From: a virus
DNA length: 29,450 nt
Strand: one strand, 5' to 3'
IMG/VR virus record: IMGVR_UViG_3300008110_000284
Coordinates: 1-29,450 of that record
Of the stretch, positions 1,121 to 27,770 are shown piece after piece. A program made the position numbers and the translations under genes. Numbering within the stretch: position 1 is the stretch's first letter; the number at the start of each line of letters is the position of its first letter. Under the pieces are notes generated by a model. That model saw only the letters and a program-made list of their open reading frames with translations. It searched no databases and was not told where the DNA came from.

Positions 1121-2179
1121 TTAAATTCTTGTTTTTGAAATTGCTTGGGCAACAGCAGCGACCATTGGGTCAACGACCTTGTCATCTGTGCCTTCCAACT
1201 CTTCATGCAACTGTTTTTCATCAGCACGCTTGGCGCCAGATGGGAAGTAGTTCTCACGAATTGTCTCAAGTTTGGTTTTGTATTCGTCCTCTGTGGAGAA
1301 TTCAACACTCTCTGCGAGTGATTTGATTTTTTCAACTTGAGTGGTGATGAGACCTTCACATACAGTATGAATGATTTCAGCTTTACGAGCTTCAACCAAT
1401 GCCTTCTTGGTTTGAATGCCACGTTCGATTTCCTCGTTAAGAGAGGTTTCTAGTTCTTCAACTTTAGAAGCCAACTCATCAACTAGGTCAACTTTTTCGG
1501 CAGGAACATCAATATAGTGTTCTGCAAATAGGTTGCGTAGACCTGAAATAAACTCTTCGGTAATTTCAGAACGCAGACCTGCTTCGATAGCAATCTGGTT
1601 TTCTTCCATCCATTGCTCAACAACATACGAAAGATAGTCATCAACCTTTTCTGTTAGGTCGGCACGAATAGATTCAACTGCTTCTTCGAGCATACCAGCA
1701 TATGCGGTTTCGATTTCTTCTTCGATTTGAGCAACACGGTCAGTAACGCGAGCTTCGAAAATGGTAGAAACTTTTTCTTTGAATTCTTCTGAGATTGTAG
1801 AATCGTCGGCAAACAATGAATCAACATCTTCCTTCATCTTTGCTTTCCATTCTTTCTTCTCTTCTAGTTGTTCTTCAGTTTCAGCAATAACTTCTTCTTC
1901 GTCTGAAACTTCTTCATCTTCTCTCATTGTTGACTGACCTTTGCCAAGCATTTCTTGCTTGTCTGGAGAGGCAGCTGAAGGTTTTGTAGTTGGTGCTGCA
2001 GCACTCTTTGATGATGGGCTAATCTTTGCAGAATTATCATTGTTCTTATAATTCTGTGGGGTTGGACCACCAGCATCATGTACCTCAGCTGGAATTTTTT
2101 CTGGAGGCATTGCTGGTGCAGCACTCTTACTACCTGCAAGAATTTCTGCGGCTGCCTCAAATAGTTTGTTTGATGCCAT
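1121..2179 (-). CDS. 22: Prohead core scaffolding protein, T4 gp22 family
   Basis: This is the main scaffold of the prohead core; in T4 it is degraded by the gp21 protease during head maturation. The 352-aa product is strongly acidic and predicted mostly helical. Residues 1-75 are an Ala/Pro/Ser/Lys-rich, low-complexity N-terminus; a Glu-rich stretch follows (around 85-115), then the conserved gp22 core with IEEEIETAYAGMLEEAVES and WMEENQIAIEAGLRSEI. Its position between the protease and the capsid gene is exactly that of T4. The start is preceded by an AAGGAG-like site, and an exact TATAAATA octamer lies 23 bases upstream. Several L/I-x-E tripeptides could be gp21 cut sites. The Pro/Ser/Lys-rich N-terminal part has no counterpart I recognise. 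Confidence 0.93.
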   Translation of the reverse strand: MASNKLFEAAAEILAGSKSAAPAMPPEKIPAEVHDAGGPTPQNYKNNDNSAKISPSSKSAAAPTTKPSAASPDKQEMLGKGQSTMREDEEVSDEEEVIAETEEQLEEKKEWKAKMKEDVDSLFADDSTISEEFKEKVSTIFEARVTDRVAQIEEEIETAYAGMLEEAVESIRADLTEKVDDYLSYVVEQWMEENQIAIEAGLRSEITEEFISGLRNLFAEHYIDVPAEKVDLVDELASKVEELETSLNEEIERGIQTKKALVEARKAEIIHTVCEGLITTQVEKIKSLAESVEFSTEDEYKTKLETIRENYFPSGAKRADEKQLHEELEGTDDKVVDPMVAAVAQAISKTRI

Positions 2180-2201
2180 TAGGAATCTCCTTATGATTTC
2201 T

Positions 2202-2209
2202 TATTTATA
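2202..2209 (-). promoter_or_regulatory. Putative T4-type late promoter upstream of gp22
   Basis: The minus strand reads exactly TATAAATA, the T4 late-promoter -10 octamer, in the gap between the gp21 stop and the gp22 start, 23 bases before the gp22 ATG. A ribosome binding site fits between it and the start. It probably drives the abundant scaffold and capsid transcripts. T4 late promoters have no -35 element, so the octamer and its position are the only evidence. Confidence 0.6.
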
Positions 2210-2212
2210 AAA

Positions 2213-2863
2213 TTAAAGTTTTCTGATGAAATTTTCAAACAAGTTAAGTGCAACCTGTTCAATATCTTTTCGTGATGCCTGTCGAATTTGTCTTTTTGCA
2301 TTATCAATATCAATTTCAACGAAACGACCTTCAACAAACAACCATTCTTTATTCTCCATGATGCCATTAACAAAGGCTCCTGGTGCCGATGGGTCGGCAA
2401 CAATGTCAGCAGCAGTTGCTAAACGAAAATCATCTTGAACAATATTGTAACCTTCTTTTGTTGGCTGCAACGAGCCCATACCACGGGAAGATACTCCAAG
2501 GTTAACACCAGAATCCATAAAATTCTTAACGATTTGCCCGTATGGTGTGTCAAGTATCAATGCCTTACCAATGAAAGATTCTCCATTGTCGGTAAGTTCT
2601 ACAATCTTGTGTGACACTCTTTCAAGATTGATAGAAGGTGTATCTGGATGACCAAGTTCTCCTAGAGCACGGTTTGTCTTTACATATTCTTCATTGTAAC
2701 GACCAACTTCTTTGCTTAGAATGTCTTTGGTATACATACGGTTATTCTTGTTTGGTTTGTCATAAACAAGAAATGGTCCAGTAATGTAAAGATTCTTCTT
2801 GCCATTTTCGGTGGCTTCAGTAAGATACTTTACTTCTTCGATGTTTTCTCTAATCAGTTTCAT
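2213..2863 (-). CDS. 21: Prohead core protein protease, T4 gp21 family (peptidase U9/S77)
   Basis: This serine protease matures the prohead by cutting scaffold, core and capsid proteins, typically after L/I-x-E. The 216-aa protein carries the family signatures GELGHP (His72, probable catalytic His), LGVSSRGMG (Ser125/126, probable nucleophile) and a downstream DD/ADIVADPSAPGAF segment. The reading frame stays open upstream to 2929, but the start at 2863 is preferred: it has AGGA at proper spacing, begins with MKLIREN, and avoids a 60-base overlap with the upstream gene. The upstream gene ends 5 bases before this start, and the AGGA lies in its last codons, so translation may be coupled. Like T4 gp21, it sits between the core genes and the scaffold. 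Early LIRE and IEE tripeptides could be self-processing sites. Confidence 0.95.
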   Translation of the reverse strand: MKLIRENIEEVKYLTEATENGKKNLYITGPFLVYDKPNKNNRMYTKDILSKEVGRYNEEYVKTNRALGELGHPDTPSINLERVSHKIVELTDNGESFIGKALILDTPYGQIVKNFMDSGVNLGVSSRGMGSLQPTKEGYNIVQDDFRLATAADIVADPSAPGAFVNGIMENKEWLFVEGRFVEIDIDNAKRQIRQASRKDIEQVALNLFENFIRKL

Positions 2864-2868
2864 AGTTA

Positions 2869-3228
2869 TTATCCTGTATATGGATCTACGTTGTAGGTAG
2901 CAGATTTGGAAACTTCCATAACAAGACAACCACCAGTTTGAACTGTGATAACAATAGATTGCCCACTATTGTTTGCAATTGAATAACCACTCTCATCAAA
3001 ACGCATTTCACCTGCGTTATGTAATTGTAGAATAGGCATACTATTTCTAGCAATCTGAATGGCACCGTTAGTTGACCACATAACTCTCTTGATGCTAGCC
3101 GCGTTAACAGTCTCTGTTGTTGGGTTAGCTCTTAGGTCAGTAAGTGCAATAGTTACTGTACCAGGATCAGCAACTCTAATGATTGATGATCCTCTTAATG
3201 AATTTGTAATTTCTGATTGAAATGCCAT
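2869..3228 (-). CDS. Small beta-rich putative virion protein of unknown function
   Basis: I do not recognise a named family. The 119-aa protein starts MAFQSEITNSL, has alternating hydrophobic/polar segments typical of a beta-sandwich or beta-barrel, and lacks a signal peptide or membrane segment. It lies between the basic core protein and the gp21 protease, with 1-base and 5-base gaps, so it is almost certainly expressed with the head genes. T4 has no gene at this point. A head decoration protein, a minor capsid or a core-associated protein are possible roles; this is inferred from position only. A weak site (GGAATAAGATAA) precedes the start. It contains few Lys residues and no Cys cluster beyond a single GGC motif near the C-terminus. 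Confidence 0.8.
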   Translation of the reverse strand: MAFQSEITNSLRGSSIIRVADPGTVTIALTDLRANPTTETVNAASIKRVMWSTNGAIQIARNSMPILQLHNAGEMRFDESGYSIANNSGQSIVITVQTGGCLVMEVSKSATYNVDPYTG

Positions 3229-3229
3229 T

Positions 3230-3664
3230 TTATCTTATTCCCATTGAGGTACGGCGTCTAAGGGACATTTTGCGTTTCATTAGTGTTCTACGCAACTTTG
3301 ATTTTCCCTTTGTCTTCCAGTATCGTTTAAGTTTTCGAGCCTTCTGTAATCTTTGCATTGTCGGTATTCTAACAACTCTGTTACCAGACAACTTGTAACC
3401 TTTAATAGAAGATTTTCTAATGTTCTTCTGAACAACAATTCTGCCCTGCTTGTTTCTACGGATTCTACGGCGAATCTTAGTGATTCTACCCATCTTCATT
3501 ACGTTGGCTTCATCCAACTCTTCTTCTACCCACTCATATGTATCATCTGCCACGGCAACTTTTTCTGCCTCTAATCTGGCAACAATCATCTCTTCAAGGC
3601 GTTCAAAAATTAATTCTCTAGCCTCAACTAACTTGTTCTGTGCAATTAAATCTATCAGTTTCAT
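3230..3664 (-). CDS. Prohead core-type protein with acidic N-terminal and very basic C-terminal half
   Basis: The 144-aa protein is two-part. Residues 1-55 (DLIAQNKLVEARELIFERL then an acidic WVEEELDEAN stretch) resemble T4 gp67, the acidic prohead core protein. Residues 56-144 are extremely Arg/Lys-rich (for example KIRRRIRRNKQG and RRTLMKRKMSLRRRTSMG), as in DNA- or RNA-binding internal proteins. It occupies the gp67/gp68 position. A likely role is a core component whose parts are separated by gp21 and whose basic part stays with the packaged DNA; this is inference. L-E-E at residues 22-24 could be a gp21 site. Its start overlaps the previous stop as ATGA, indicating coupled translation. 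It may correspond to gp68, but I see no clear gp68 sequence match. Confidence 0.85.
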   Translation of the reverse strand: MKLIDLIAQNKLVEARELIFERLEEMIVARLEAEKVAVADDTYEWVEEELDEANVMKMGRITKIRRRIRRNKQGRIVVQKNIRKSSIKGYKLSGNRVVRIPTMQRLQKARKLKRYWKTKGKSKLRRTLMKRKMSLRRRTSMGIR

Positions 3665-4365
3665 TTGGCATGCTTGAAAGCAAAGTCAGCAGCCTTCATT
3701 AAATGTTCTGGTGACTTATGTACCATATCAGCAAACTTTTTCTTGTTCTCGTCATTCAATGCTTTATGCACTTGAGTAATTGCTGATGCGGTGAAGTGGT
3801 CTACTTTGCGGGTATGACCTGACGCAAACTTAACAGACTTTGCCTGTTTATCATTCACAATCTTATGAAGTGTATCCATTACTGCTTCTTCTAACTCAAC
3901 TTCTTCTGCCTGAATTGGTGCATCCATACCTGCACCATATTGATAAGGTATAGAGAAATATTTTCTTAGTCGTTCATTGTAATACAAAGCAATTTTTGTT
4001 CCATCTGGATACATACGAATTGCTTTGCGTTTGATAACTAGAACTACTGGTGGATCTTTGTCTTCTTGTAGAACAATTGGTTCATCAGTAACTTCTTCTA
4101 CATCTTCTCTTACTGCTCTACGAGCTTGATTGAAAATCTGTTTGTTATTGGAAACCAAATCTACCATACGATTGAACATATTCTGTAGAATCGCACGGTC
4201 TGCATTATTAAACACAGGTTTTTCTTCTTGCATCTTATCCAATATCTTATGGATACGTTGCAACTGTGCCTTGTTAACAAGACCAGCGCGAACAAGAGCA
4301 TCAAACTTTGAGTAGTCTGATTTCTCTTCTTCAACGATAGATTTGAATTCTAATAAGGACTTCAT
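3661..4365 (-). CDS. Putative prohead core/head protein of unknown function (234 aa)
   Basis: No named family recognised. The N-terminal 120 residues are helical and charged (MKSLLEFKSIVEEEKSD, then a long RIHKILDKMQ/ILQNMFNRMVDL amphipathic part). A short beta segment with PPVVLVIKRKAIRMYPDGT and an Arg/Tyr-rich stretch follow, then an acidic linker (AEEVELEEAVMD) and a basic helical C-terminus ending in HAK. The early tripeptides L-L-E and I-V-E fit the L/I-x-E rule for gp21 cleavage, so it may be packaged in the core and processed. Both ends overlap the neighbouring genes as ATGA, placing it firmly in the head operon. T4 has only gp67 and gp68 here, so this is either a divergent gp68 equivalent or an additional core protein. 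Confidence 0.83.
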   Translation of the reverse strand: MKSLLEFKSIVEEEKSDYSKFDALVRAGLVNKAQLQRIHKILDKMQEEKPVFNNADRAILQNMFNRMVDLVSNNKQIFNQARRAVREDVEEVTDEPIVLQEDKDPPVVLVIKRKAIRMYPDGTKIALYYNERLRKYFSIPYQYGAGMDAPIQAEEVELEEAVMDTLHKIVNDKQAKSVKFASGHTRKVDHFTASAITQVHKALNDENKKKFADMVHKSPEHLMKAADFAFKHAK

Positions 4366-4538
4366 TCTTGTTCTACAGTTTCTTCTTCTGTTTCTTCTTG
4401 ACCACCAAATAGTGTAGAAGCAATTTCTTGTTTACGGGCATCTAGTGCCTCAAATGCCTTTGCAGACAACATATCAGACATTGTTTGTTTGGCACCAACA
4501 GCATCACCTGTTGCGATTTGAGTTACGAAACTTGTCAT
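4362..4538 (-). CDS. 67: Prohead core protein, gp67-like
   Basis: This small acidic protein matches T4 gp67, a minor core component needed for correct head shape. The preferred product is 58 aa, starting MTSFVTQIATGD; this aligns in register with the start of T4 gp67 (MEGLIEAIKSND). The middle KAFEALDARKQEIASTLFGG is typical of the family, and the tail is Glu-rich (EETEEETVEQE), as in T4. An in-frame ATG also exists at 4550, giving four extra residues and a TAATG overlap with the portal stop. Both starts have an SD-like sequence (AGGA for 4550, GGAG for 4538). The downstream start is chosen from the family alignment and because the putative late promoter at 4558-4565 would leave almost no leader for the upstream one. 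Confidence 0.85.
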   Translation of the reverse strand: MTSFVTQIATGDAVGAKQTMSDMLSAKAFEALDARKQEIASTLFGGQEETEEETVEQE

Positions 4539-4549
4539 AGTATTCTCCA

Positions 4550-6193
4550 TTATTTCCTATTTATATTGAGAGCAGTTTTCTCTACCGAATTATCTAATTC
4601 TGGTGTCAGAGATTCTGTATCCTGTTTCTCATAAGTGTTATCTACTGGTTCTGCATCACCACCAGGTTGACCTTGTTGCTGGTCACCACCAATCGGTGTG
4701 ATTGGACCTTCTTCTTCTATTTCTTGATCCATCTTCTCAATTTCTTCATCGGTCATCTGAAGAACATTCTTCTTAACCCATGTTGCAGAGAAGTAACGAC
4801 CAATGAATGGTTCCATCATCGTTGCAGTATTGACTCTTTCACGCAGCAATTCTGCATCACGCATTTCGGTAAAGTTATTGTCTTTGATGAAGTCGTAATA
4901 AATTTCTTCACGGAATTCATCCCATTCTTCACTGGTACAAACACCTTTAAGAACTAATTGTGTGCGTAGTGCATGGTCAAAAATCTGTGCAAACTTGTTG
5001 CGTAGTCTCTGAACGAACTTTGCAAACTTAACTTCATCGCGGGTAACTTCGGTTGTTTTACCAACACCCATCAAACCACCGTCATTAGGTTCTAAACGAG
5101 ATACTGGAACATTCAATGCATTCAACAGTTTCTTTTGGAAGTATTTTACATCTTCCATCTCACCTAAGTTTTGACCAGCAGGCAATGTTGTAATTTCGGT
5201 ACCTTTACCACCTTCGCGGCGAGGTAACCAGAAGTCTTCAAGCATCGACAAGTGTTTACGTTCATCACGAATCTCACCTGTGCTTGCATCGTAAACTAAC
5301 TTGTTACGATACTGAATCATAATAGAACGGATGTATTGTTCTGCTTTACCTTTTGGTAAGTTACCAACATCAATATAGAATATACGGCGTTCAGGTGCTC
5401 TTGAGATACGGTAAATAACTACCGCATCTTCAATCATTCTTAGTTGATTGAGTGCCTTGATTGCTTTGTGTAGGTAAGAAATGACAAATACATTTTTTGC
5501 ATCCATCAAACCTGAGTTTACATTAATAATTGCCTCAGGTGCAATACGCAAACCTTGTGTTACATTCGCACTAAATGTTTGTGTCGTTGTACCACGGTCA
5601 TTATAGACATAGTATTCAGCCAACGATTTGATGATGTTGGCACCAGTTTTTGGGTCGCGTTCTTTTTGAATCTCACGCACTTTACGAATCTTGCGTGGGT
5701 CAATATAACGAAGTTCTTGAATACCTTTTTTTGGATCTTTATCATTGACGATTACATGGTAATAGATACGACCGTCAATGTACCAACGCTTGAATAAATC
5801 GTCGGCAAGATTACTGAAGTTCAACATCTTTTGGATGTTTTTAAACTCTTCAATAATTTTTTTCTTAACTGCTTCTGGTTGTTTGAGATTATCTACTACA
5901 ATCTTGACAATCTCACCTTGTTCTGTATGACTGATTGCTTCATTAACAATTTCATCAATTGCCATATCACACTCTGGGTGATTTGACATTTCACGATAAC
6001 GAGTGATGAGTTCAATCTCATTACGAACAGAACCATCTAAATCAACATAAGTGCCGTAATGGGCATTCTGCGTGATAGTAACTGCACCGTCATCAATTGC
6101 CTCGGTTGGAAGTGTAAAAGAGGCCTGCTCGGGTTTTTCTTCCCGAACAATGTCCTTTTTACCTAGTGTAAAACCGAATAATTTTACTGCCAT
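4550..6193 (-). CDS. 20: Portal vertex protein, T4 gp20 family
   Basis: This protein forms the dodecameric portal at one head vertex, which nucleates prohead assembly, docks the terminase and later joins the neck. The product is 547 aa, close to T4 gp20 (524 aa). The family motif near residue 70 is visible (ITRYREMSNHPECDMAIDEI then VNEAI), as are RYIDPRKIRKVREI and NVPVSRLEPNDGGLMGVGKT, followed by a long helical stem/crown region (FAKFVQRLRNKFAQIFDHAL). The C-terminal 60 residues are Gln/Glu/Gly-rich and probably flexible. The start at 6193 has AGGA about ten bases upstream, immediately after a terminator hairpin that separates this gene from the tail tube gene. The stop overlaps an ATG of the next gene. 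Confidence 0.97.
   Translation of the reverse strand: MAVKLFGFTLGKKDIVREEKPEQASFTLPTEAIDDGAVTITQNAHYGTYVDLDGSVRNEIELITRYREMSNHPECDMAIDEIVNEAISHTEQGEIVKIVVDNLKQPEAVKKKIIEEFKNIQKMLNFSNLADDLFKRWYIDGRIYYHVIVNDKDPKKGIQELRYIDPRKIRKVREIQKERDPKTGANIIKSLAEYYVYNDRGTTTQTFSANVTQGLRIAPEAIINVNSGLMDAKNVFVISYLHKAIKALNQLRMIEDAVVIYRISRAPERRIFYIDVGNLPKGKAEQYIRSIMIQYRNKLVYDASTGEIRDERKHLSMLEDFWLPRREGGKGTEITTLPAGQNLGEMEDVKYFQKKLLNALNVPVSRLEPNDGGLMGVGKTTEVTRDEVKFAKFVQRLRNKFAQIFDHALRTQLVLKGVCTSEEWDEFREEIYYDFIKDNNFTEMRDAELLRERVNTATMMEPFIGRYFSATWVKKNVLQMTDEEIEKMDQEIEEEGPITPIGGDQQQGQPGGDAEPVDNTYEKQDTESLTPELDNSVEKTALNINRK
4558..4565 (-). promoter_or_regulatory. Putative T4-type late promoter inside the end of the portal gene
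   Basis: The minus strand reads exactly TATAAATA within the codons for the portal C-terminus (asn-ile-asn-arg). It is 20 bases before the preferred gp67-like start at 4538. It could give the small core genes a separate late promoter so that they are made in excess over the portal. Because it overlaps coding sequence it could also be chance, but a second exact match at 2202-2209 supports this octamer as the phage's late signal. Confidence 0.5.
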
Positions 6194-6812: not shown

Positions 6813-6820
6813 TATTTATT
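6813..6820 (-). promoter_or_regulatory. Possible late promoter variant upstream of gp19
   Basis: The minus strand reads AATAAATA, one mismatch from TATAAATA, overlapping the stop codon of the sheath gene and 21 bases before the tail tube ATG. A separate late promoter for the abundant tube protein would make sense, but the variant is common in AT-rich DNA, so the call is tentative. Confidence 0.3.
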
Positions 6821-8723
6821 AGAAACGGCCGACAATTTCATCAAACGAAACACCTGTTCTTACTGCAACAAAGTTAAGTTGGATGAAGTTGACTGAGCGT
6901 GCTGGTTTAATGTAGATATCACCAACGAAACGGTTGCTGTCAATAACTTCGGCTGTGTTGTTTGACTCATCGCAGACTACACGGAAGTCAGTAATACCAC
7001 GGCGACCTTGAACATCACGCAAGTAAGGTTCTACTAGGTTTACAAACTGAGCGCGAGTAAATTGGTCGTTGAATTCAAACAGAGAGCTGCGTGAAGCACG
7101 AGCAATTGTCTTTTCTAGAACAATGAACAGACGGCGAACATTGATACGGTCAAATGCTGATGGGCGATTCAACATAGTCTTATCACCAAACAAGATTGTG
7201 CCTTCACCTTGGAATGTAACAACAGGGTTGACACCTTGAACATATAGGTTATCACGTTCTGTTTTTGTTGGGTTGAATGCCAACTTGATAACATTCTTTA
7301 TGATACCGCGGTTTAGACCACCTGGTGAGTACCATGGATCGCGCTCTTGGTCGGTACGAGCGCAAACACCAGCAATGTCACCGTTCAAAGGTACCCAACG
7401 GTATACATCTGTGTATCTATCGTATTGGTATTTGTAACCAGAATCCATGAATGCGTATGAAGAACTGGTGAATCCAGCACGATGTGTAAGAATGCTTGTT
7501 GATTCTGAACCAGCATTGTTAACTACGTTAGTCTTCAACGGTGACAAGAATACCATGCAGTCTTTACGAGATTCTGCCAATGCAATTAGACTTGCACCAA
7601 CAGTTGCGTTACCTGGACCAGAAATTAGTAGTGAAACATCAACAACATCTGGATTAGAGAAGAAGTTGTATGCAGCAACAATTTCTGTATTACCAATTGT
7701 ACCATCTGCACCGTCACTCATTGACGCAGAGAATGGTGTGTTGATATTGGTAAATGTCTTTGCAACAGCAGTAGTTCCCCAGTTTGACGAACCTGGTTGA
7801 TGACCTAACCACCAAACATACTTAGATTGAGCGTTGATAACTGTTTTATAGTAATTTGTTGAACCATCGTTGTTTGTAGAATCAGATGCCTTTGAAACGA
7901 ACGAGTATTTTTCAAGAACGGTATTTGCAACGCCGCCAGAAAATTGACCATCTTCGTCTACAACGATAACATGCATTTCATCGCCTGAACCGTTTAGAGC
8001 AGAAACATAAGCTGAAGTTCCTGGTGCAACACCAAATTGGTCAGCATATTGCCACTTACGAAGAACTGGAGTACCAACAGCAACTACACCTGGTGCAGTT
8101 GCGGTAATAATTGCAGTTGCATTAACTTCTGCAACACGGATATAAGTTGAACCACCGTCAAGAGAAATTAAATCATTGTTAGCAAGGTTTGCTCTTGCAT
8201 CTGCGGTACCGTTGATGTTAATTACTGTGCAGCTAGCTGCAACAGCATTTGCTCTTAGGCTGTCTGTAACACTTAGGTTTGCAGAGAATGCTTGTGTGCT
8301 TGGGCACATAGAAATACGCAAGGTATTACCTAGAGCACCAGCATAACGAGCAGCAAATGGACCGTAAGCAGTGTTGGTTGCAGTTTCGCGGTTAGCAGCA
8401 TAATCGTCAGAGTTCTTAATCAGAACACCGGTTCCGTTTGCTGTCGAGTTGTTACTTGATGATGTGTTTGCCGCACGAACAACTTTTAGATTGTTAGAAT
8501 ACGCTAAGAAATTAGCAGCAGAGAACCAGTATTCATAATTTGTATTGTCTGGCTCACCGAATCGGCTAACGAGATTGTTCTCGCTCGAAACGGTAACCAC
8601 TTCACCAACTGGACCCCAGTTGAAATTTCCAGCAATACCGCCAATAGAAGTGGCGACTGAAGGGACAATTGTAGTCAGGTCGATTTCTGATACATTTACC
8701 CCAGGTGATAGCTGAAATGCCAT
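6819..8723 (-). CDS. 18: Contractile tail sheath protein, T4 gp18 family
   Basis: This protein forms the contractile outer sheath of the tail. The 634-aa length is close to T4 gp18 (659 aa). The N-terminus LSPGVNVSEIDLTTIVPSVAT plus GGIAGNFNWGPVGEVVTVSS is the standard sheath opening. The conserved C-terminal core is visible: RGIIKNVIKLAFNPTKTERD, NPVVTFQGEGTILFGDKTM, FDRINVRRLFIVLEKTIARA and DFRVVCDESNNT, the part that forms the inter-subunit handshake. The middle (about residues 90-280) is variable and corresponds to the surface-exposed domains. The start at 8723 has AAGGAG upstream. An imperfect late-promoter-like TATAAAGA lies 31 bases upstream at 8754-8761. Confidence 0.97.
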   Translation of the reverse strand: MAFQLSPGVNVSEIDLTTIVPSVATSIGGIAGNFNWGPVGEVVTVSSENNLVSRFGEPDNTNYEYWFSAANFLAYSNNLKVVRAANTSSSNNSTANGTGVLIKNSDDYAANRETATNTAYGPFAARYAGALGNTLRISMCPSTQAFSANLSVTDSLRANAVAASCTVININGTADARANLANNDLISLDGGSTYIRVAEVNATAIITATAPGVVAVGTPVLRKWQYADQFGVAPGTSAYVSALNGSGDEMHVIVVDEDGQFSGGVANTVLEKYSFVSKASDSTNNDGSTNYYKTVINAQSKYVWWLGHQPGSSNWGTTAVAKTFTNINTPFSASMSDGADGTIGNTEIVAAYNFFSNPDVVDVSLLISGPGNATVGASLIALAESRKDCMVFLSPLKTNVVNNAGSESTSILTHRAGFTSSSYAFMDSGYKYQYDRYTDVYRWVPLNGDIAGVCARTDQERDPWYSPGGLNRGIIKNVIKLAFNPTKTERDNLYVQGVNPVVTFQGEGTILFGDKTMLNRPSAFDRINVRRLFIVLEKTIARASRSSLFEFNDQFTRAQFVNLVEPYLRDVQGRRGITDFRVVCDESNNTAEVIDSNRFVGDIYIKPARSVNFIQLNFVAVRTGVSFDEIVGRF

Positions 8724-8775: not shown

Positions 8776-10458
8776 TTACAGATTTGAAGATAGGTAACCT
8801 GGTGGCATTTGTTTAGGTTCTTCTTTTGTCCACGCATCTCCACTATCTACATCATATTCATCTTCTAATCCGTCAGACATGAAACCGAAGGGTATAACAT
8901 CTTCTTCAATCTGTTTAATTCGTTCTTGGTACATTGCTTCACGAACATTGATATCATTTAAATCTTTGAAATACGGGTTGGTTGTCAACCAACTAAACAA
9001 AACTAGAGGCATAACTAAATCATCGTGGTAACCATCATCTGCCTCATAAGAACCACGGTGTTCAATAAAAGTTGATAACTCTGAAATTACATCTGCGTCC
9101 TGAATCAGTAGTTTCTTCTCTTCTACCAGAGATTTGAAGGTGAAACAACCAATTCGTTTTACTCTCTTGTCTGTCACAACACCGAAACTTGTTCTACCGG
9201 CACCACCGAAGCCGCCAGTTACACGCTGACCTTTACCTGATTTTGTGACATACAGAATGTTCTCATACTCTAGTTCAGACTGCAAAATGTATGCAACCTG
9301 TTCACTGGTATTGACCTCAAGTAGAACATATGCATTGTTGAAGTCTTTTGCCACCTTATGTATAACAGACGGGTAAAGCATCGGTGCAATCTTGTTGTCT
9401 CTGAATTTGCCTACAAGTTTGTATGGAACTTCAGTAATATCTACGATTACAAATGCCGAGTAGTCTCCACCAACACCTTGTGCGGTATCTGCAACGATAA
9501 CATATGAGTGAGGTTTCTTAGTTAGTTTCTCTTCATCATCTCTCTCAGCTTTGATTGGGTATTCATACAAGTCCAACCCATCTTTTGAGTAGACCATCGG
9601 GCAGGTTGACATATACTCGATGGTTGCAGAGTCAATTAATGTTAACGAAGAGCCCAGAAACTTGCAAAGAACCTCTTGGTTATACTTCAATTCACCAAGT
9701 TGGCGTTTCTGTTCTAGTGCCCACTTCTCATCACGACCAGGAATCTTGTTGTATGGAATGAACAGAGGCACAAAGTCATTGTTCTTGTTTGTTGCATCGT
9801 TCCAGAATTTCCAAAAGTGGTTATATCCTAGAGGTGTCGATGTAATCAGAATCTTGGTTGTTTGACCAGCAGAAATAACAGGGTAAACCGCAGTAAAGAA
9901 TGCTTCGGCAACTGTGTTTGGTATGATTGCAGCTTCGTCAATATACAGAAGGTTAACTGATTTACCACGAATACCTTGCGCGGTTGTCGCAGCAGTAAAG
10001 ACAATAGAACCGTTTTCTAGTTCAATGTCACCTTTGTTCCATGTCTTAACACCTTGTTGCATCCAGACAGGCAAGTTTTCATACATCAATTGATAACGAG
10101 ATATAATTTCTCTTGCAGTTGATGCCTTGTTCGCCAAAATGGCAACGGTCTTAGATTCTTGGAAGAGTGTATACCACAGAATGTATGCTGCTGAGGTCGA
10201 AGTTTTACCTTGTTGTCGACCTTCCATAATGATAACCTTACGGTTCTTATGGATTATATCTAGTTTTTCTTTTTGGCAATCATACAGTTTGAACGGTTGC
10301 AAACCATGGTCAAGTGTTACAATATAACAATAGTTGTCAACGAAGTATATTGGATCGCTGGCACACCTAGCAAGCTCTAATACTTGTTCTTGCGTATATG
10401 AAATTTTGACTTCAGTTCTTTTTAAGGAACTGTTGCCCATATACCCCGTATCACTCAT
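8776..10458 (-). CDS. 17: Terminase large subunit, T4 gp17 family
   Basis: This is the DNA-packaging motor ATPase and headful nuclease. The 560-aa protein has Walker A at residues 80-87 (GRQQGKTS), Walker B LLYIDE at 170-175 with Glu175 as probable catalytic carboxylate, and the coupling motif ITSTP around 205-209. The C-terminal RNase H-like nuclease has the expected acidic residues: Asp324 (VADTAQGVGGDYSAF), Glu381 (YVLLEVN) and Asp479/480 (YHDDLVMPL). It is slightly shorter than T4 gp17 (610 aa). The start at 10458 lacks a good ribosome binding site; an alternative ATG six codons later (10440) follows GGGG. The upstream gene ends 4 bases before. Gene order gp16-(Dps)-gp17-gp18 matches T4 apart from the Dps insertion. 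Confidence 0.97.
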   Translation of the reverse strand: MSDTGYMGNSSLKRTEVKISYTQEQVLELARCASDPIYFVDNYCYIVTLDHGLQPFKLYDCQKEKLDIIHKNRKVIIMEGRQQGKTSTSAAYILWYTLFQESKTVAILANKASTAREIISRYQLMYENLPVWMQQGVKTWNKGDIELENGSIVFTAATTAQGIRGKSVNLLYIDEAAIIPNTVAEAFFTAVYPVISAGQTTKILITSTPLGYNHFWKFWNDATNKNNDFVPLFIPYNKIPGRDEKWALEQKRQLGELKYNQEVLCKFLGSSLTLIDSATIEYMSTCPMVYSKDGLDLYEYPIKAERDDEEKLTKKPHSYVIVADTAQGVGGDYSAFVIVDITEVPYKLVGKFRDNKIAPMLYPSVIHKVAKDFNNAYVLLEVNTSEQVAYILQSELEYENILYVTKSGKGQRVTGGFGGAGRTSFGVVTDKRVKRIGCFTFKSLVEEKKLLIQDADVISELSTFIEHRGSYEADDGYHDDLVMPLVLFSWLTTNPYFKDLNDINVREAMYQERIKQIEEDVIPFGFMSDGLEDEYDVDSGDAWTKEEPKQMPPGYLSSNL

Positions 10459-10462
10459 AGCA

Positions 10463-10897
10463 TCACTTTAGAATGCTACGCAACATCCATGCAGATTTTT
10501 GTTGTCTACCTAATAAATCTTGTATGAAATTAGATACAGCGGGTTCACCTGCTTGGTCAGCAGCAACAATACCGGCACGAAGATGCACAATTAAACGGTC
10601 ATTATCATTCTTGATTTCGAACATCATAGCCAAGGCTGAAGGTACAGTAGTTGCATCTTCAATATCAGATAGTTCAAGGAATCGTGTGAATGAACCTGGA
10701 GCATACGCATCTAAACGGCGAAGGTGTTCTGCAATATCATCAGTCTGTTCCCAAACTTGATTATAGAATGAATCAAGAAATGAATGATACTGTGGAAAAT
10801 CGGGACCTTCAATGTTCCAATGGTAATTGTGTGCCTTTAGATACAAGGCAAAATTGGTTGCAAGAATAACTTTGAGTTGTTGAATTAATGTTTCCAT
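10463..10897 (-). CDS. Dps-family ferritin-like protein (ferroxidase)
   Basis: Dps proteins form 12-subunit shells that oxidise Fe(II) with peroxide and store iron, protecting DNA from oxidative damage. The 144-aa protein has His26, His38, Asp42, Asp53 and Glu57; this spacing (12, 16, 27 and 31 residues from the first His) is identical to the E. coli Dps ferroxidase site H51/H63/D67/D78/E82. The AHNYHWNIEGPDF motif is diagnostic. It begins directly at the first helix and lacks the Lys-rich N-terminal tail used by E. coli Dps for DNA binding. It lies between the small and large terminase genes with gaps of 6 and 4 bases, so it is expressed late with packaging genes. T4 has nothing here. Whether it is a virion part, a protector of packaged DNA or an iron-handling enzyme is unknown. 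Confidence 0.92.
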   Translation of the reverse strand: METLIQQLKVILATNFALYLKAHNYHWNIEGPDFPQYHSFLDSFYNQVWEQTDDIAEHLRRLDAYAPGSFTRFLELSDIEDATTVPSALAMMFEIKNDNDRLIVHLRAGIVAADQAGEPAVSNFIQDLLGRQQKSAWMLRSILK

Positions 10898-10903
10898 AGT
10901 AAC

Positions 10904-11311
10904 CTATTTATTATCTCTAATTTGTTTAAGTAAATCTGCTGTTGAACCAACAAAAACTGCTTTTTCTACGGTGATATTTCCACCAGTATTTTCTAATTGA
11001 GGCTTCAAATCTTTTTTTCGTTTCTGTAGTTCTAGTAAATCTTTGTTTAAATCAGCCATCGTCTTCATCAACCCAGCAACGACCTCATATGCTCTAGGGT
11101 GTTCTGATTCTTTTGAAACTTGCAACAAGTTATCTACTGCAACATTACCTTTATCAATCAAATTTCTTATATTCTTACGGGCATAATCCGTATCAGAATC
11201 TACAACATCATCTTCAACGGTAACCAGTTCTGCTGTTTTGATAGGTTCAATCGTTGTTGATATTGGATCAAGGTCAAAAATTTCTGATAACTTTTTATCT
11301 GTCTTGCTCAT
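10904..11311 (-). CDS. 16: Terminase small subunit, T4 gp16 family
   Basis: This small terminase regulates the gp17 motor and recognises DNA for packaging. The 135-aa product (T4 gp16 is 164 aa) aligns with the T4 protein: ARKNIRNLIDKGNVAVDNLL corresponds to the T4 RRNMHFQQQMLMDAA region, SEHPRAYEVVAGLMKTMADL to SPRHMEVFATLMGQM, and EKAVFVGSTADLLKQI to the ATVFMGSPTELMDEI ending. The central part is a helical hairpin that forms the oligomer core; the N-terminal 45 residues are acidic. Its start overlaps the gp15 stop as ATGA, which indicates coupled translation. It is separated from gp17 by the Dps gene, whereas in T4 the two terminase genes overlap. Confidence 0.93.
   Translation of the reverse strand: MSKTDKKLSEIFDLDPISTTIEPIKTAELVTVEDDVVDSDTDYARKNIRNLIDKGNVAVDNLLQVSKESEHPRAYEVVAGLMKTMADLNKDLLELQKRKKDLKPQLENTGGNITVEKAVFVGSTADLLKQIRDNK
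10905..10912 (-). promoter_or_regulatory. Possible late promoter variant before the Dps gene
   Basis: The minus strand reads AATAAATA across the last codons and stop of gp16, followed by GG and then the Dps ATG seven bases later. It differs by one base from TATAAATA. If it is a promoter the Dps mRNA would have almost no leader, so it may be chance from the Asn-Lys-stop codons. Confidence 0.2.
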
Positions 11312-12312
11312 AGTAATGTTTGTGGCCAGTCTGTAAATGTTTCTTCAAATCCATACGGACCATTTCCGTTGGCATTTGGTGGGTTAGGTGTTACAACGAT
11401 TGCAACCGCTTTGGTTGGTGAGTTGTCTACTGTTGCAATCTTAAAGGTTGCATTTGAGTAAACACCTGTTACCAAATCGTTTACTTCTACTCTTTTGTTC
11501 AAGTCTGTTAGAACAAGAACACCAGTTGAGGTATTACTGAAATATAGAACCTTACCTGTAACACCTCTTGCATCGACAAAAACATCTTCACCGGTTGTAT
11601 ACACACCAGTTCCTGTTGCATAGTTTACATAGACCTTCTGTGCATCAAGGTTGGTCGAATCTGTATATATGTTACTGTTTGCCTGAAGAATAAGTTTGCC
11701 GCCCGAAGGATTAATAACTGGTGGCCAGATGTAAGCCTTTGCGGTGAAAGTAAGATTCCAAATAATGGCTCTTGTGTTGTATAGGTCACCTTCATAGTCA
11801 ACCTCTGGTGTTACTGAATTCAAAAGGACAGGCATATCATAGACCTGATCCATTTCTTTGATGAAGTCTACAGTAACAGTAAAGTCTGGTGTGAAGTATG
11901 GTAAAATTTGTTCTAGTATCTGTGTGCCATCTTCTGTGTTACGAACATAGATTGACAGACTGAAATCAAAATTATATGGAACAGGCGCATACTGTGTTCT
12001 CAAACTACCTGAACTAAAACCAAAATTCTGTAATGTGGTTTGTTGTTTTCTGGTGGTGTCATATGAGATACCTTCCAGATTAAAACTCATTCTAGGCAAA
12101 GTAGTTTGAATTGATTTTGTTAGAGTTGGATCACTATTAATACGAACCAAATACTTCTCTTTGGGTCCATAGTTTAATGGAACCTTGGTAGTTTCGTGTG
12201 CTGTCAACCCATCTTTTGAATAACGAGTTAACACAACATCATTGAACATAGAACCAAATGCAACAACAATCTTGCGAATGGTTCTATTATAGAAGTGTGC
12301 GTTGTGTAACAT
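11308..12312 (-). CDS. 15: Tail completion / sheath terminator protein, T4 gp15 family
   Basis: In T4, gp15 caps the finished tail and connects it to the neck proteins gp13/gp14. Family segments are the N-terminal HNAHFYNRTIRKIVVAFGSMFNDV, the VPYNFDFSLSIYVRNTEDGTQILEQILPYF part and FTPDFTVTVDFIKEMDQVYD. The protein is 334 aa compared with 272 aa in T4. Much of the excess is a beta-rich segment at about residues 233-297 (GVYTTGEDVF to VNDLVTGVYSNATF), which resembles a segment in the neighbouring gp14. The C-terminal YGFEETFTDWP is a typical family ending. The start overlaps the gp14 stop as TAATG and the stop overlaps the gp16 start as ATGA, so it is coupled on both sides. Confidence 0.93.
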   Translation of the reverse strand: MLHNAHFYNRTIRKIVVAFGSMFNDVVLTRYSKDGLTAHETTKVPLNYGPKEKYLVRINSDPTLTKSIQTTLPRMSFNLEGISYDTTRKQQTTLQNFGFSSGSLRTQYAPVPYNFDFSLSIYVRNTEDGTQILEQILPYFTPDFTVTVDFIKEMDQVYDMPVLLNSVTPEVDYEGDLYNTRAIIWNLTFTAKAYIWPPVINPSGGKLILQANSNIYTDSTNLDAQKVYVNYATGTGVYTTGEDVFVDARGVTGKVLYFSNTSTGVLVLTDLNKRVEVNDLVTGVYSNATFKIATVDNSPTKAVAIVVTPNPPNANGNGPYGFEETFTDWPQTLL

Positions 12313-13202
12313 TATGGTTCACCAAATGGGTTATGTTCTGTGAAGTCGATAACATCATCAGCTTCACCTTCGATTCTATTATTATCAACAACATCTTCAA
12401 ATGCATTGTCCATTGTGGCAGTATCAGAAGTAGAAGCAACATTCCAAATCGCACCACTTGTATTGCCTGTTACGATTGTGTTGGCTGCAAATGTACCTGT
12501 AACACGATAAACATACAGTTGTGAACCTGCAACATAGTTGTGAACGGTTGCTACGGCACTTGCAGTTGCTACATTAGCACCTTGATACACTACCTCATCA
12601 GGTACATAAGTTCCTGAACCACCTGCTCTTAGTGTGATTTGTGTTCTTGGATATGCATCTTTAATTTGACCATCAATCTCGGCATTACCAGTAAGAACAA
12701 GTTCATTAGAGAATACCCATTGTTTCAATTTCAATGCATAGACATAGACATTGCCACCACGACCACGACCTAAGGTGTAATACATTGCCTGGTTGTTTTC
12801 GTGTTCTACAAAAGTAATCTCAAAGAAATTCTGTAACATTGGAACATAAATCAAATCACCTTCATTTGGTCGTTGTTGATTTACTGTAAAAACAAATCTG
12901 CGACGAGATACAAGGAATGTCATCTCATCACGAATCTCAAGACCAAACTTCGACATGAAGTCGCCTTCACCTTCCATACCTGTAACATCTTCAAGGTACA
13001 TCTCAAGTGGGTAGGCTGCTGTGTATTGCTTTAGTGTATCTTCACCATACAACATATCAACCTGGTCACCAGTGCTTCTAGGCATATAGTAAATATCCAT
13101 GCCATAGATTTTCAATGCCTCAATAACAAGGTCTTCCACCAGCAATTGCTCGCTGGTGATTTGATTTACTGGAAAGTTATTGAAATAGAAATTAGTAGCC
13201 AC
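12312..13202 (-). CDS. 14: Neck protein, T4 gp14 family
   Basis: In T4, gp14 and gp13 form the neck that joins the head to the tail. The conserved N-terminal part reads LLVEDLVIEALKIYGMDIYY then MPR, followed by EMYLEDVTGMEGEGDFMSKFG and RPNEGDLIYVPMLQNFFEI. The C-terminal VIDFTEHNPFGEP is the typical gp14 ending. The protein is 296 aa (T4: 256 aa); the extra length is mainly a beta-rich insert at about residues 195-258 (GTYVPDEVVYQGAN to VTGNTSGAIW). The start is GTG at 13202, giving MATNFYFNN; the overlapping ATG at 13204 is out of frame. No strong ribosome binding site precedes it, so coupling to gp13 (stop two bases upstream) is likely. Confidence 0.93.
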   Translation of the reverse strand: MATNFYFNNFPVNQITSEQLLVEDLVIEALKIYGMDIYYMPRSTGDQVDMLYGEDTLKQYTAAYPLEMYLEDVTGMEGEGDFMSKFGLEIRDEMTFLVSRRRFVFTVNQQRPNEGDLIYVPMLQNFFEITFVEHENNQAMYYTLGRGRGGNVYVYALKLKQWVFSNELVLTGNAEIDGQIKDAYPRTQITLRAGGSGTYVPDEVVYQGANVATASAVATVHNYVAGSQLYVYRVTGTFAANTIVTGNTSGAIWNVASTSDTATMDNAFEDVVDNNRIEGEADDVIDFTEHNPFGEP

Positions 13203-13203
13203 A

Positions 13204-14160
13204 TTAACCCATCATAATTTCATTAGGCAATGCATTGATATCATACATCTCTTGTTCTAACTCTTTAATCTCAGCAACTGCTTCGTCATATATTTGTTGA
13301 CCGTTTAGAACAACACCACCAGGCATTTGTATGCCACCAAATTTTTTCAGATTAGAACCCCATTGTCTTTTAATCAATGCGGTACCATATCTCTTAAGGT
13401 ATCTATCATTCCATACATCAGAGTTACCAGCCACAGTTGCGGTTGTATTCGATGCACTATTTGCAAAAGGTCCGCGAACAGTAATTGATGTTGGTGAATT
13501 GATTGTTGCAATCTGTATAGTGTCAACACCGTTTAAAGTGATGAAGTCATTCTCCATAACTTCTTGGTCAAATATTGTTCCGTATCCTGTGATAGTATTT
13601 GAAGACGAAGTGTATGTCATGGTACCTGTTAGAGTTACTGTATCAGGTATCATTTTACGATAACATTCAACGATTACATATTGACCAGGCATTAAATCTC
13701 TTGTCCAATCAATGTCAAGGAACACTTTGTTCTGGTGACGATTGAATCTGAATTGCGGTGTACCAGAGAACAACAAGTTCAAGGTACGAATGTGTTGCAT
13801 CGTAATCTCATATGAGACATACGAAACAGAAGTAAAGTCATACAGGTCATGCAAGCGTAACTGGTAACGCAAGTCAAACATATTGATTGACGCATTAGAT
13901 TGGTCAAACGGAAATATACCTGTTACGAATGATACAGCATCAGGGCAATAAATCCAACGGCGATTAATATCTTCAGCCGTAATCTGATGCTTCATATACA
14001 TCTTCTGTTGACCGTCAAAATGATAATCGTTCCAGAAGGAAAGTGCCTCATCAATACGGTCATCTACCTGGTCATCGTCCACGTTAATTTCAATAACAGG
14101 AAAACCAAGTTCTCTTAGACAGTATGTTTTGTATTGTGCTCTTGTTGCTGGCTTTGACAT
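13204..14160 (-). CDS. 13: Neck protein, T4 gp13 family
   Basis: In T4, gp13 is the neck protein that sits below the portal and is needed for head-tail joining. The N-terminus YKTYCLRELGFPVIEINVDD, the VDDRIDEALSFWNDYHFDG segment and the C-terminal DVWNDRYLKRYGTALIKRQ, LPGG-like MPGGVVLNG and EAVAEIKELEQEMYD are diagnostic. The length of 318 aa is close to T4 (309 aa). Residues 173-247 (TLTGTMTYTSSSNTITGYG to NTTATVAGNSD) look like a small beta domain inserted in the loop between the CYRK and DVWND segments; T4 must be shorter here or longer elsewhere. The start at 14160 has only a weak upstream site (GATTGATAA). Confidence 0.95.
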   Translation of the reverse strand: MSKPATRAQYKTYCLRELGFPVIEINVDDDQVDDRIDEALSFWNDYHFDGQQKMYMKHQITAEDINRRWIYCPDAVSFVTGIFPFDQSNASINMFDLRYQLRLHDLYDFTSVSYVSYEITMQHIRTLNLLFSGTPQFRFNRHQNKVFLDIDWTRDLMPGQYVIVECYRKMIPDTVTLTGTMTYTSSSNTITGYGTIFDQEVMENDFITLNGVDTIQIATINSPTSITVRGPFANSASNTTATVAGNSDVWNDRYLKRYGTALIKRQWGSNLKKFGGIQMPGGVVLNGQQIYDEAVAEIKELEQEMYDINALPNEIMMG

Positions 14161-15031: not shown

Positions 15032-15039
15032 TATTTATG
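15032..15039 (-). promoter_or_regulatory. Possible late promoter variant before the glycine-rich gene
   Basis: The minus strand reads CATAAATA, one mismatch from the late consensus, overlapping the last codons and stop of the 1300-aa gene and seven bases before the next ATG. The same bases supply part of the AGGG ribosome binding site. The short distance makes a promoter role doubtful. Confidence 0.2.
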
Positions 15040-18000
15040 CATTTCGATTAGGAGTTGTTGGTGCGGTAAAGTTTGCAACATATCTAGCATAACCTTTAGT
15101 TACTCTTAATTCATCAATAAATCCATTCCAAGATTCTGTAAGCGCAGGATTATCTCCTACAAAAAAAGTTTGGTCGTGAGACAAATAATTAGTAAAAGAT
15201 GTTGTTGATCCTACCTGTGTGCCATCAAGAAATAGTCTCATACTTCCACTACTTCTAGTCACAGCAAAATGCGTCCATGTGTTTGCAACAACTGTACCTG
15301 CCGATACAACTGATGCTGATCCTGAATAAAATTGTAATGCAGCCGCACTCAAACCAAAAGAAAATCGACCAGCTGTAGTATCTGCGGCACTTGTTCTAGT
15401 AGTGCAGATAGTTCTAAATCCAGCGGCTACAGTAGAAGCATATAACCAACCATCAATAGTAAAATCTCCAGTTCCAAATGTAAATTGTTGGTTTCCACTA
15501 TTCTGTATTCTTAAATAATCTCCAGAACCATCAAAATAAATTGCAGTATTTCCAAACTTTTTCTGAGTTGTTGATGCTCTAGAATTACCAATAACATCAA
15601 TGTTACCCATCATACTTCTATCAATGATTCCTGATGCATTAGCAGAAGCTGCTCCTAGTAAAAGAGCAGTATTTGCGGTAAGTGTTATTGGCGTTGTTGG
15701 TGGCGTAAATGCAGAAGGATACAATGCTGTTCCTTTAACCACATGCAAATCTGTTATGTAACCGTTATATGCTACTATACCAGTAGTAGCTCCATTATTT
15801 AAATATCCTATAGAACAGAATGTCTGTGTATTATCAAGAACCACAACAGAACCTGTACCAACACTTGTACCATTGATATAAAGAGTAGCACTTCCTGCTG
15901 AAACACTTACTGCAACATGCGACCAAGTGTTTCTAGATACCGTAGAAGAAGATGTTATTAATATATTAGAACCACCGGTGCTAGGTCTAACTTGAAATCT
16001 TATGTTGCCTGTACCATACAATTCTAAAAGTAATGAGCCGTAGTTAGTTACGTTTGCGTTACTTACTTGATAAAGATGCGCTGCATTAGTTGACAAAGGC
16101 AATGCTGTAGGATATATCCAACACTCAATAGTATATGTGTTAAGTGGTGGCAAGAAATGACTAAGTGGTACGGTTAAGTAATCACCGGTACCATCAAAGA
16201 AATAAGAACCACTATAAACTGTAGTATCATATGCTAATTCTTTACCAAATGGTGAAAATTTAGAAACTGATGTGTTACCTGAAGGTGTTAATGTATATCC
16301 TTTAGGGCTGTTATCTATCAGTCTGTTATTTTGAAAAGTTAACAGAGATACGTTAGCTGAATTAGCACCTTGACTTGTTGTTGTTAATGGTACAGTAGAC
16401 GGTGTGAAGTTTGCTGTATATAATGCTTGACCTTTAACTACGCGAAGATTAGAAAGATGCCCATTTATACTACTATTAGTTCCGCCATTTTCTTGTCCAA
16501 TATAAACTGGGTTAGCGGTACTACTAAAGTTTGTTGTTTGTATACCATTGGCTACTATGTTTCCATTTAAAAATAATCTTGTATTTGATGACTCTCTAGT
16601 TACCGCCAAATGTATCCAACTGTTAGATACAACTATTCCGGATGTTTTAGTTACACCCGGCTCGCCTGTAACAACTTCTGTAAAAAATAAAGCACTATTA
16701 CTAAATTTTAAACTCCATGTACCAGCCAAACCAGCACCAGAGGCTCTAGTTGAAATAATTCTAGAGTTGGCACCACCAAAGGTACCAATAGAATATATCC
16801 AAGTTTCAATTGTAAAATCACCTGTACCAAAAGCAAAATTGGTATTTGCAGGAACAGTAACGTAATCACCACCCGAATCAAAGTAGGTACTCCAAGTGTT
16901 TGCAGAGTTAGCAGAAAAGGTATAACCATATGGAGTAAATGTTGATGGGCATACAGAACCAACTCTTGTTAGAGTAAGGTCGTTATTACTACTATCATAA
17001 AAAATTTCATTGTTGCCAGAATATTTTGTTTGAGTGGTTAACAATACCACATTACTAGAGTTCGCACTTTGGCTTGTCAAAGTTAATGGTACTGTTGAAG
17101 ATGTGAAACTGCTGGTATAAAGTGCTTGACCTTTTGTGATGCGAAGATTGCTTATGTAAAAATTTCCATAAGCTGTCCAAGTATCTGCATATCCAATTTT
17201 AAAGGTGGTACTAGAATCTGTTAAGTTTGTGCTATTAGTTCCAGTAGCATCTAATGTACCATTTTTAAACCAGTAAACTGTAGATCCGGTTCTTACTAAC
17301 GCCCAATGTGTCCAAGCATTAACTTCTACATCTGATCCCGAAAAGAAATCACTGGTACCTCCAAGTCTCGCACCAATCTTTGTTGGACTTAATGAAGAAT
17401 TTTTATAAATTTGCCACCCAGAAGTAGCATCACTAAGTTTTTTACCAGTAACACCCATAGTGCCGGTCCAAGATATAGGATATAACCAAAACTCTACAGT
17501 AAAATCACCTGAACCTAAATCTAGAGTTGGAGTTTGAGCTATCTGAACATAACTAGTATTGAAATAAACAGAACCCATAGTTTGGTCATCAGACAACGAA
17601 AGTGGTGGTACTATAGTATTTGTTATTGAACTATTTGCACTTGCGGTTCTAGTTAAAGTAAATGATGATGCACTTGCGTCTATCACTCTATTACTGTTGG
17701 CAATTAATAATACTGTATTTGATATGGCTGTTAATGGTGATGTTGGTGGTGTAAAAGTTGATGTATATAAACAAGTTCCATTAGCAACACGATGATTGCT
17801 GACATATGCACCTGTTGTATTGTAACGAGTTTCACCAATTGACCATGAACCAGTAGCATAAGAACCTGATACTGTTGCATTTCCAGCAGAAATTCCATTG
17901 ACCCAAACTGTCATCAAATTATTATTATCTCTAGTCATAGCAACGTGGTACCATGTATTTGCTAAAGGAGCAAATGAAGTTGTTACTAAATCTCCAACAT

Positions 18001-21900: not shown

Positions 21901-22221
21901 AGCATAGATTACTCCACTATTCAACCTACTGTCAAATATCATCAATGGGTATGAACCAACAGCAGTTGCTGGTATTACAGCACGATACTCGACTGAACTA
22001 ATGTAGGTATTTGATACCAATGCATTGTTGAAATATACTTTGCACTCTGGTACAAAACCATAACCTTTAATTTTTACATAACCACCCGAAGTGCTAACAG
22101 CAGTATCATCTAATTCAATATATGATGCATCAGTAACAACAACACTACTTATACTTATGCCAGCATATTGTGTTATACTGTTAGAATCCGAATCTCTGGT
22201 TCTTACAGATTTACTTGTCAT
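18934..22221 (-). CDS. Giant LamG-repeat fibre/adhesin protein, 1095 aa, four jelly-roll repeats
   Basis: Paralogue of the adjacent 1300-aa protein. It has the same architecture: a beta domain at 20-115 (SGGYVKIKGYGFVPECKVYF), a putative-Ig domain at 130-195 (GDAPLTYSLYSGTLPTGLSL then SGLISGT), then four LamG/concanavalin-like repeats at about 258-415, 475-635, 695-865 and 920-1090. Each has FDGTGDYLQV-like, TGDFTVEGWFY-like, NTWYHFALTR-like and LFLNGT elements, followed by YISNVRVSKQALYTSTFTPST-like strands. It ends with DLRVTRGYARYVANFTAP, nearly the same as the paralogue. The two N-terminal domains are closely similar, suggesting the same attachment point on the virion, while the LamG repeats differ and may recognise different glycans. 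The start overlaps the preceding stop as TAATG. Confidence 0.9.
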   Translation of the reverse strand: MTSKSVRTRDSDSNSITQYAGISISSVVVTDASYIELDDTAVSTSGGYVKIKGYGFVPECKVYFNNALVSNTYISSVEYRAVIPATAVGSYPLMIFDSRLNSGVIYANLQTSGFPTFTTTSYTSGTVTVSIQLLASGDAPLTYSLYSGTLPTGLSLSSSGLISGTTSGTSTTTFDVLLTDGQNQTTQQTITLIISGSDDYWKNTTLLLSGEALASNNSNANSTTIFSDTSDNRFTVTVNGDCRPSHFTPFTSNTAIDGSTFFDGTGDYLQVADSAALRFGTGDFTVEGWFYATSVSGQRGLVAKGGTAQTTGWEIRINGASGGALAATISSTVVSGTTVIAVNTWYHFALTRSGTTVRLFLNGTQEGSGTFSTDLNQTDILVIGNTRPLNQLFLGYISNVRVSKQALYTSTFTPSTSRITTTSQSANSANVLLLTCQTLTSNNNSLFIDASINERALTKVGTPNFSSFNPFVPNWSVYFSGGDTLITQSNVGFALGTGDFTVECWFYPIVTGGGLIDFRQSGAASQVKPTIYWAGSTLAYVVSNTSRISFSSGSITANQWYHIAAVRSSGVTKMYLNGVVNSTTYTDSNDYGSTAQDIILGQVGDNRSFASGYYNGYISNARVVKGQALYTANFSPSSTSLTTTSQGANSSNVTLLTCNNYGFIDKSNNALSLYTTAQVSVVNFSPFSSANTYTYDDNGTSMYLAPASGNYLTCTANNDFLPSASNFTIEAWVYPTTNAASRGISNNWQSGGACIFTLTSGNFLEFSFTDAASGISTKALTGTTRSVAANCWSHIAVVRNGNTGSLYVNGIADATTYNFTGVTIYNYNGVAKQFRIGVGGDLGGPYVGYISNYRFVNGTAVYTGNFTPSARPFGYREYASTTKVLLSGATTSVLDSTMQNTLQLNGNVRLLPGTSKWGTHSYFFDGTGDYISVYAYARSALSCYFGTQDFTIEAWLYPTTVSKAMTVIDSRTSAASTTGLALSISATGFPLVVINNATLFTSSTALTINTWTHVAVVRYGTTVTLYLDGTKPTTGNGTSAASCTDRDVTIGTSVGNRDATATNHYQGYIDDLRVTRGYARYVANFTAPTSPNKGL
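18965..19007. repeat. Direct repeat, copy 2 (3' end of 1095-aa LamG gene)
   Basis: This stretch is the partner of 15066-15108, offset by 3899 bases, with three mismatches in 43 positions. Recombination between the copies would delete or exchange a whole LamG gene. Confidence 0.85.
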
Positions 22222-26242: not shown

Positions 26243-26263
26243 AACAATTCCTTTTCATAATAA

Positions 26264-27715: not shown

Positions 27716-27751
27716 TTATGTCCCCTGGATAAGGCTTCTGTTTTTATAGTC

Positions 27752-27759
27752 TATTTATG
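27752..27759 (-). promoter_or_regulatory. Possible late promoter upstream of the 483-aa fibre gene
   Basis: The minus strand reads CATAAATA (one mismatch from TATAAATA) in a 55-bp gap between fibre genes, 37 bases before the next start. The gap is one of the few real intergenic spaces in the cluster, which makes a promoter here more likely than for variants inside coding sequence. A TATAAAAA sequence just downstream (27741-27748) is an alternative. Confidence 0.4.
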
Positions 27760-27770
27760 TTTCGTGATAG

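Follow-up and report, generated by a model that had tools for sequence, protein, structure and literature searches.

Why would a T4-like phage carry a gene for a putatively iron-oxidizing Dps protein between the two genes of its packaging motor? The question arises from a window of 29,450 nucleotides of virus DNA (IMG/VR record IMGVR_UViG_3300008110_000284, positions 1 to 29,450), in which homologues of gp13 to gp18, gp20, gp21 and gp22 lie in order, all of them on the minus strand. A T4-like neck/tail block with gp15, gp14 and gp13 (11308..14160; T4-gp15_tss, T4_neck-protein and phrog_211) lies upstream of the gene for the small terminase subunit gp16 (10904..11311, 135 aa; DNA_Packaging, E 3.2e-11; phrog_445, 9.8e-36), and the gp15 and gp16 reading frames share 4 bases. 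The Dps gene (10463..10897, 144 aa, minus strand) starts with ATG and is separated by 6 bases from gp16 and by 4 bases from the large terminase subunit gp17 (8776..10458, 560 aa; Terminase_6N, 3e-19, and Terminase_6C). Downstream of gp17 are the tail sheath gene gp18 (6819..8723; Phage_sheath_1 and 1C of Pfam) and a block of head genes (1121..6193) with the portal homologue gp20 (4550-6193, assigned from position and synteny), the prohead protease gp21 (2213-2929; Peptidase_S77, 4.2e-35) and the scaffold gp22 (1121-2179; T4_CASP, 5.4e-67). Elsewhere on the same strand, the regions 15035-22221 and 22560-28505 contain two proteins of 1300 and 1095 aa, both very large and with similar repeated segments, together with several ORFs in which 'YANAAF..AN' repeats abound; these are probably fibre or adhesin proteins.

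The window ORF is a Dps-family mini-ferritin. It matched the Ferritin family (PF00210, E 1.1e-24), the phage family phrog_3636 (E 1.5e-35) and Dps proteins among the PDB chains (best E 1.7e-22). An AlphaFold2 monomer model built with 39 aligned sequences (mean pLDDT 97.4) has five helices in the Dps order (residues 2-28, 34-61, 70-76, 88-115 and 119-143), forming a four-helix ferritin-like bundle with a short BC helix. The best 50 solved-structure matches listed for this model were all Dps-family chains, with TM scores of 0.94-0.96 to the top ones. Thus, the ORF coordinates together with the Pfam, phrog_3636 and PDB matches confirm the sequence-only reading of this locus, which had described a 144-aa Dps-type gene with gaps of 6 and 4 bases to the terminase genes. 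Chance or misannotation was also considered, and is ruled out by the E-values, the Dps folds, synteny in dozens of contigs and dN/dS values of 0.085-0.16. The bacterial Dps/Dpr proteins of Staphylococcus aureus (PDB 2d5k), Brevibacillus (1n1q), Pseudomonas aeruginosa (PA0962, 8ff9) and Treponema pallidum (TpF1, 2fjc) have the same fold over the full length and the same His/His/Asp/Glu ligand frame; however, the window protein is only 26-35% identical to them, belongs to a separate phage clade and has no tail. E. coli Dps was not among the closest solved-structure matches listed.

All five residues to which the ferroxidase site had been assigned, His26, His38, Asp42, Asp53 and Glu57, are present in the window protein as claimed, with the spacing of E. 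coli Dps (12/4/11/4). Four of them, His26, His38, Asp53 and Glu57 (E. coli His51, His63, Asp78 and Glu82), are invariant in 123/123 non-redundant phage relatives, and their equivalents occur in 80/80 of the nearest loci from bacterial genomes. The fifth, acidic ligand (E. coli Asp67) is Asp42 in the window protein, whereas this position in 340 type-A phage loci (those with Dps between the terminase genes; the same contigs may recur in this count) is Gly in 139, Asn in 104, Asp in 67, Lys in 15 and another residue in 15. The five-residue site is therefore true of the window protein, but the phage family is constrained at four ligands, because position 42 is mostly Gly or Asn in the phage relatives. 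This also sets the phage family apart from the bacterial Dps/Dpr proteins, and the substitutions could mean a changed chemistry in most relatives. We did not conclude that ferroxidase function is lost through this variation, since cellular relatives also vary at position 42, which is mainly Glu or Met in the nearest bacterial-genome loci (n=80). Position 42 belongs to a stretch of helix B (residues ~39-54; 10736..10783, minus strand), delimited from alignments and residue counts, that, amid an otherwise highly conserved phage Dps, is strongly variable and has a mosaic appearance from lineage to lineage, with Asp53 invariant.

The protein begins METLIQQLKVIL directly at helix A and terminates at helix D, and it is acidic (pI 5.07, charge about -7). 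The absence of a Lys-rich N-terminal tail, already noticed in the sequence-only reading, was therefore correct. Type-A Dps proteins in general have no tail and carry a net charge of -3 to -10. E. coli Dps, in contrast, has a Lys-rich N-terminal DNA-binding tail. In a review of the family, Dps proteins are described as binding DNA through a basic tail, and Dpr proteins as antioxidants without DNA binding (PMC7762939). Because it lacks a basic tail and has a negative net charge, the window protein resembles, as far as its sequence indicates, an iron- and peroxide-detoxifying Dpr rather than a DNA-coating Dps.

How widespread the arrangement is was determined from IMG/VR loci gathered by separate anchors, namely Dps, gp15, the gp16 of a phage without Dps (L112), and gp17. 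With the Dps anchor, the order gp16-Dps-gp17 was found in 73/73 loci holding all three genes. With the gp15 anchor, which is blind to Dps, Dps lay between gp16 and gp17 in 57/57 loci having both, and with the L112 gp16 anchor the order occurred in 67/70 complete loci, the three exceptions (L312, L313 and L339) having gp16 and gp17 about 24-42 bases apart. A search for this order in related phages had been proposed from the window alone, with absence of the gene from the locus in all relatives as the outcome that would count against it; this did not hold, because nearly every close relative shows the order. Dps is thus nearly fixed between the packaging-motor genes in a large uncultured T4-like clade. 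The gp17 anchor gave 13 loci, L112 included, in which gp16 and gp17 adjoin directly, and the earlier description of Dps as an insertion between the terminase genes agrees with this condition of the Dps-less relatives. In three further loci of the gp17 anchor (L131, L134 and L145), a nuclease-like ORF occupies the junction; this ORF of 142 aa, in place of Dps, is of staphylococcal-nuclease type by eye (L131:1185-1613; L145:3569-3997). Additional inserts were found 3' of Dps, comprising GIY-YIG-like ORFs in L065, L348 and L440 and other ORFs in L365 and L409. As a separate observation, an intein-like insert with a possible homing endonuclease splits gp17 itself after '...RQVGKC' in L264 (5440-7611) and L435 (3748-4945), at what seems to be the ATP-binding loop; in L264, gp17 continues with 'HNTTTTVGY'.

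Dps also has a second home. We classified placements as A (between the terminase genes), B (clustered with genes for DUF6267, cytidylyltransferase and DUF6321) and C (all others, including G007). In the large records G004 (165 kb) and G007 (143 kb), Dps is about 36-60 kb from a gp17 that is about 70% identical to that of the window, and in G004 and many divergent loci it is found in the B cluster. The type-A record G012 retains genes for DUF6267, cytidylyltransferase and DUF6321 between about 54 and 66 kb, but the single Dps gene that it has lies at 104 kb, at the gp16/gp17 junction; Dps has therefore changed its genomic place. It nevertheless stayed single-copy: a whole-record search found exactly one Dps in 17/22 records, and a few relatives lacked Dps in the records available. 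The closest Dps of the bacterial-genome set (50% identical) is from L161, a 132-kb contig labelled as a Bacteroidetes MAG (CAIWHI010000271.1); it adjoins ORFs homologous to type-B phage genes, and the contig probably belongs to a phage that was binned with the MAG.

On a Dps tree of 132 sequences and 145 columns, many inner forks of which are unresolved, all phage Dps except three outliers (S-SRM01 L158, L547 and L548) lie together on the same side of a branch with SH-aLRT 95. Placement A requires two changes on this tree, against a mean of 43 for shuffled placements, and forms one group with the window (45 rows) and another near L107 (13 rows). The neighbouring gp17 behaves differently: its type (one about 45% and the other 70-100% identical to the gp17 of the window) switches at least 11 times among the type-A rows. 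The two types, which are about 45% identical to each other, alternate between near-identical neighbours, for example in L012, L020 and L052; L020 is 92% identical to the window in gp13 and 77% in gp18 but 44% in gp17. Since the motor gene has been repeatedly exchanged beside a retained Dps, these sequences argue against a tight co-evolution of Dps and gp17. Pairwise dN/dS was 0.085-0.16 for Dps, 0.018-0.044 for gp17, 0.039-0.098 for gp15 and 0.032-0.095 for gp16; by these estimates Dps is under purifying selection, at values above those of gp17 and similar to or above those of gp15 and gp16. The nearest clearly cellular Dps found is 42% identical, and the GC3 of the window Dps is within the range of its neighbours. 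Together with the phage clade of its own and the low dN/dS, these values rule out a recent capture from a host.

We consider the most probable explanation, at a probability of roughly 0.6, to be that the gene encodes a late-expressed, phage-adapted Dps/Dpr-type ferroxidase, which would limit Fe(II) and H2O2 damage and be made with the packaging motor as part of the late block. In this reading, the subunits would form a dodecamer. Fe(II) would enter it, be oxidized at inter-subunit sites, probably with H2O2, and be stored inside as ferric oxide. Removal of the Fenton reactants may then reduce hydroxyl-radical damage to replicated phage DNA awaiting packaging while host metabolism is failing. 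The position of the gene would serve to co-ordinate its expression with the late genes, and would not reflect a physical part in the motor. The gaps between Dps and its flanking genes are mostly 0-43 bases on both sides across the relatives, and are therefore consistent with co-transcription with the late genes. Matches to the T4 late promoter TATAAATA numbered 2 against 2.3 expected, with none near Dps. The Dps fold, the four invariant ligands, the purifying selection, the gp16-Dps-gp17 order, the acidic protein without a tail and the retention of one Dps per record regardless of position speak for the Dpr-type role, and similar roles in handling iron and peroxide have been proposed for the Dps of Bacteroides phages (PMC8008677) and of Lactobacillus phages (PMC6669764). 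Against it stand the Gly or Asn at position 42 in most relatives, the few relatives without Dps, and the second home among capsid-leader proteins, which points rather to the head. A paper on viral transcripts from a lake concerns a Pithovirus-like protein and was left unused.

The main rival explanation, which we regard as doubtful, is that Dps becomes one of the internal proteins of the prohead, where it would protect the packaged DNA against iron and peroxide, or from which it would pass with the DNA into the next host. ORFs of the B cluster often start with a sequence similar to what we take to be the capsid-targeting leader of the T4 internal head proteins, for example MISFKEYILNEA in G004 and MLTFKEYLLE in L474, and several unrelated protein families of the cluster have it in common. 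With the motif fixed on G004 and L161 and counted on the other loci (G004, L161 and L460 omitted), it was matched by 64/308 ORFs around type-B Dps, 2/325 around type-A Dps and 6/186 around type-C Dps. The difference between B and A (Fisher p 1.6e-19) overstates independence, because many of the 64 matching ORFs are orthologues of one another. Examples of the cluster are L456:108-9225 (about 122.8-131.9 kb in G004), L474, L482 and other type-B loci, and the motif suggests that, in aquatic T4-like phages, this cluster encodes a large repertoire of head-internal proteins not recognised before. That T4 has a capsid-targeting leader, and what it does, has been described (PMC3012670). However, while the T4 internal head proteins carry the leader, the motif is absent from both the window Dps and the type-B Dps themselves, and a 12-mer, with a width of about 9 nm, would require a route of entry into the head. 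Type-A Dps does lie inside the head/tail gene block, and BFVD contains longer phage proteins in which a Dps fold is listed, such as A0A6J7WPK9, A0A6J7XDU5 and A0A6J7WIS1, automatic naming calling some of these longer proteins prohead protease, but none of the 155 divergent loci that we checked for a fusion of Dps with a head protein had one. We give the head some weight because the B cluster is rich in leader proteins, although the window Dps has no leader. By analogy with encapsulins, in which a ferritin-like protein is combined with an HK97-fold shell (PMC7762939), a virus-encoded iron cage might be assembled with the capsid or travel in it; the window Dps, in contrast, has no loading peptide or leader, and we hold such a cage to be rather unlikely.

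It is less probable still that Dps is a passenger, of conditional benefit at most, at a junction that tolerates inserts. The nuclease-like ORFs at the junction and the GIY-YIG-like or other ORFs 3' of Dps speak for this; however, these inserts are sporadic, whereas Dps is near-universal at the junction and under purifying selection. The least supported reading, and a very improbable one, is a direct role in packaging, by binding gp16, gp17 or the DNA end so as to protect or organise DNA in packaging: what speaks for it is the placement between the two motor genes, which almost every close relative shares, but the idea is weakened by at least 11 switches of the gp17 type, by phages in which Dps lies far from gp17, by relatives that package without Dps at this locus, and by an acidic, tail-less protein.

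That phages carry Dps genes, and what these do in general, is already known. The Dps of the cultured phages S-SRM01, S-EIVl and Salmonella 7-11, and those reported for Gratiaviridae and Lactobacillus phages, likewise represent phage-encoded members of the family, about 27-37% identical to the window protein; in the genomes of S-SRM01, S-EIVl and Salmonella 7-11, however, the gene lies amid metabolic or hypothetical genes and not between the terminase subunits. In the open-access literature we found no description of the gp16-Dps-gp17 order, of the near-fixed placement at the terminase junction, of the single-copy relocation or of the association with capsid leaders. The B-cluster neighbourhood is relevant to the question of whether phage heads contain a ferritin, and to thinking on iron in virions; if an iron cage were indeed in the capsid, it would protect the packaged DNA or act in the newly infected cell. 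As for the late-infection ferroxidase that we favour, a gene earlier reported as an occasional accessory of phages behaves like a near-core gene in this large group of uncultured T4-like phages, where it stays single-copy despite genomic moves and repeated swaps of the neighbouring terminase. This suggests that these phages have a lasting need to control iron damage in late infection, and makes that need directly testable.
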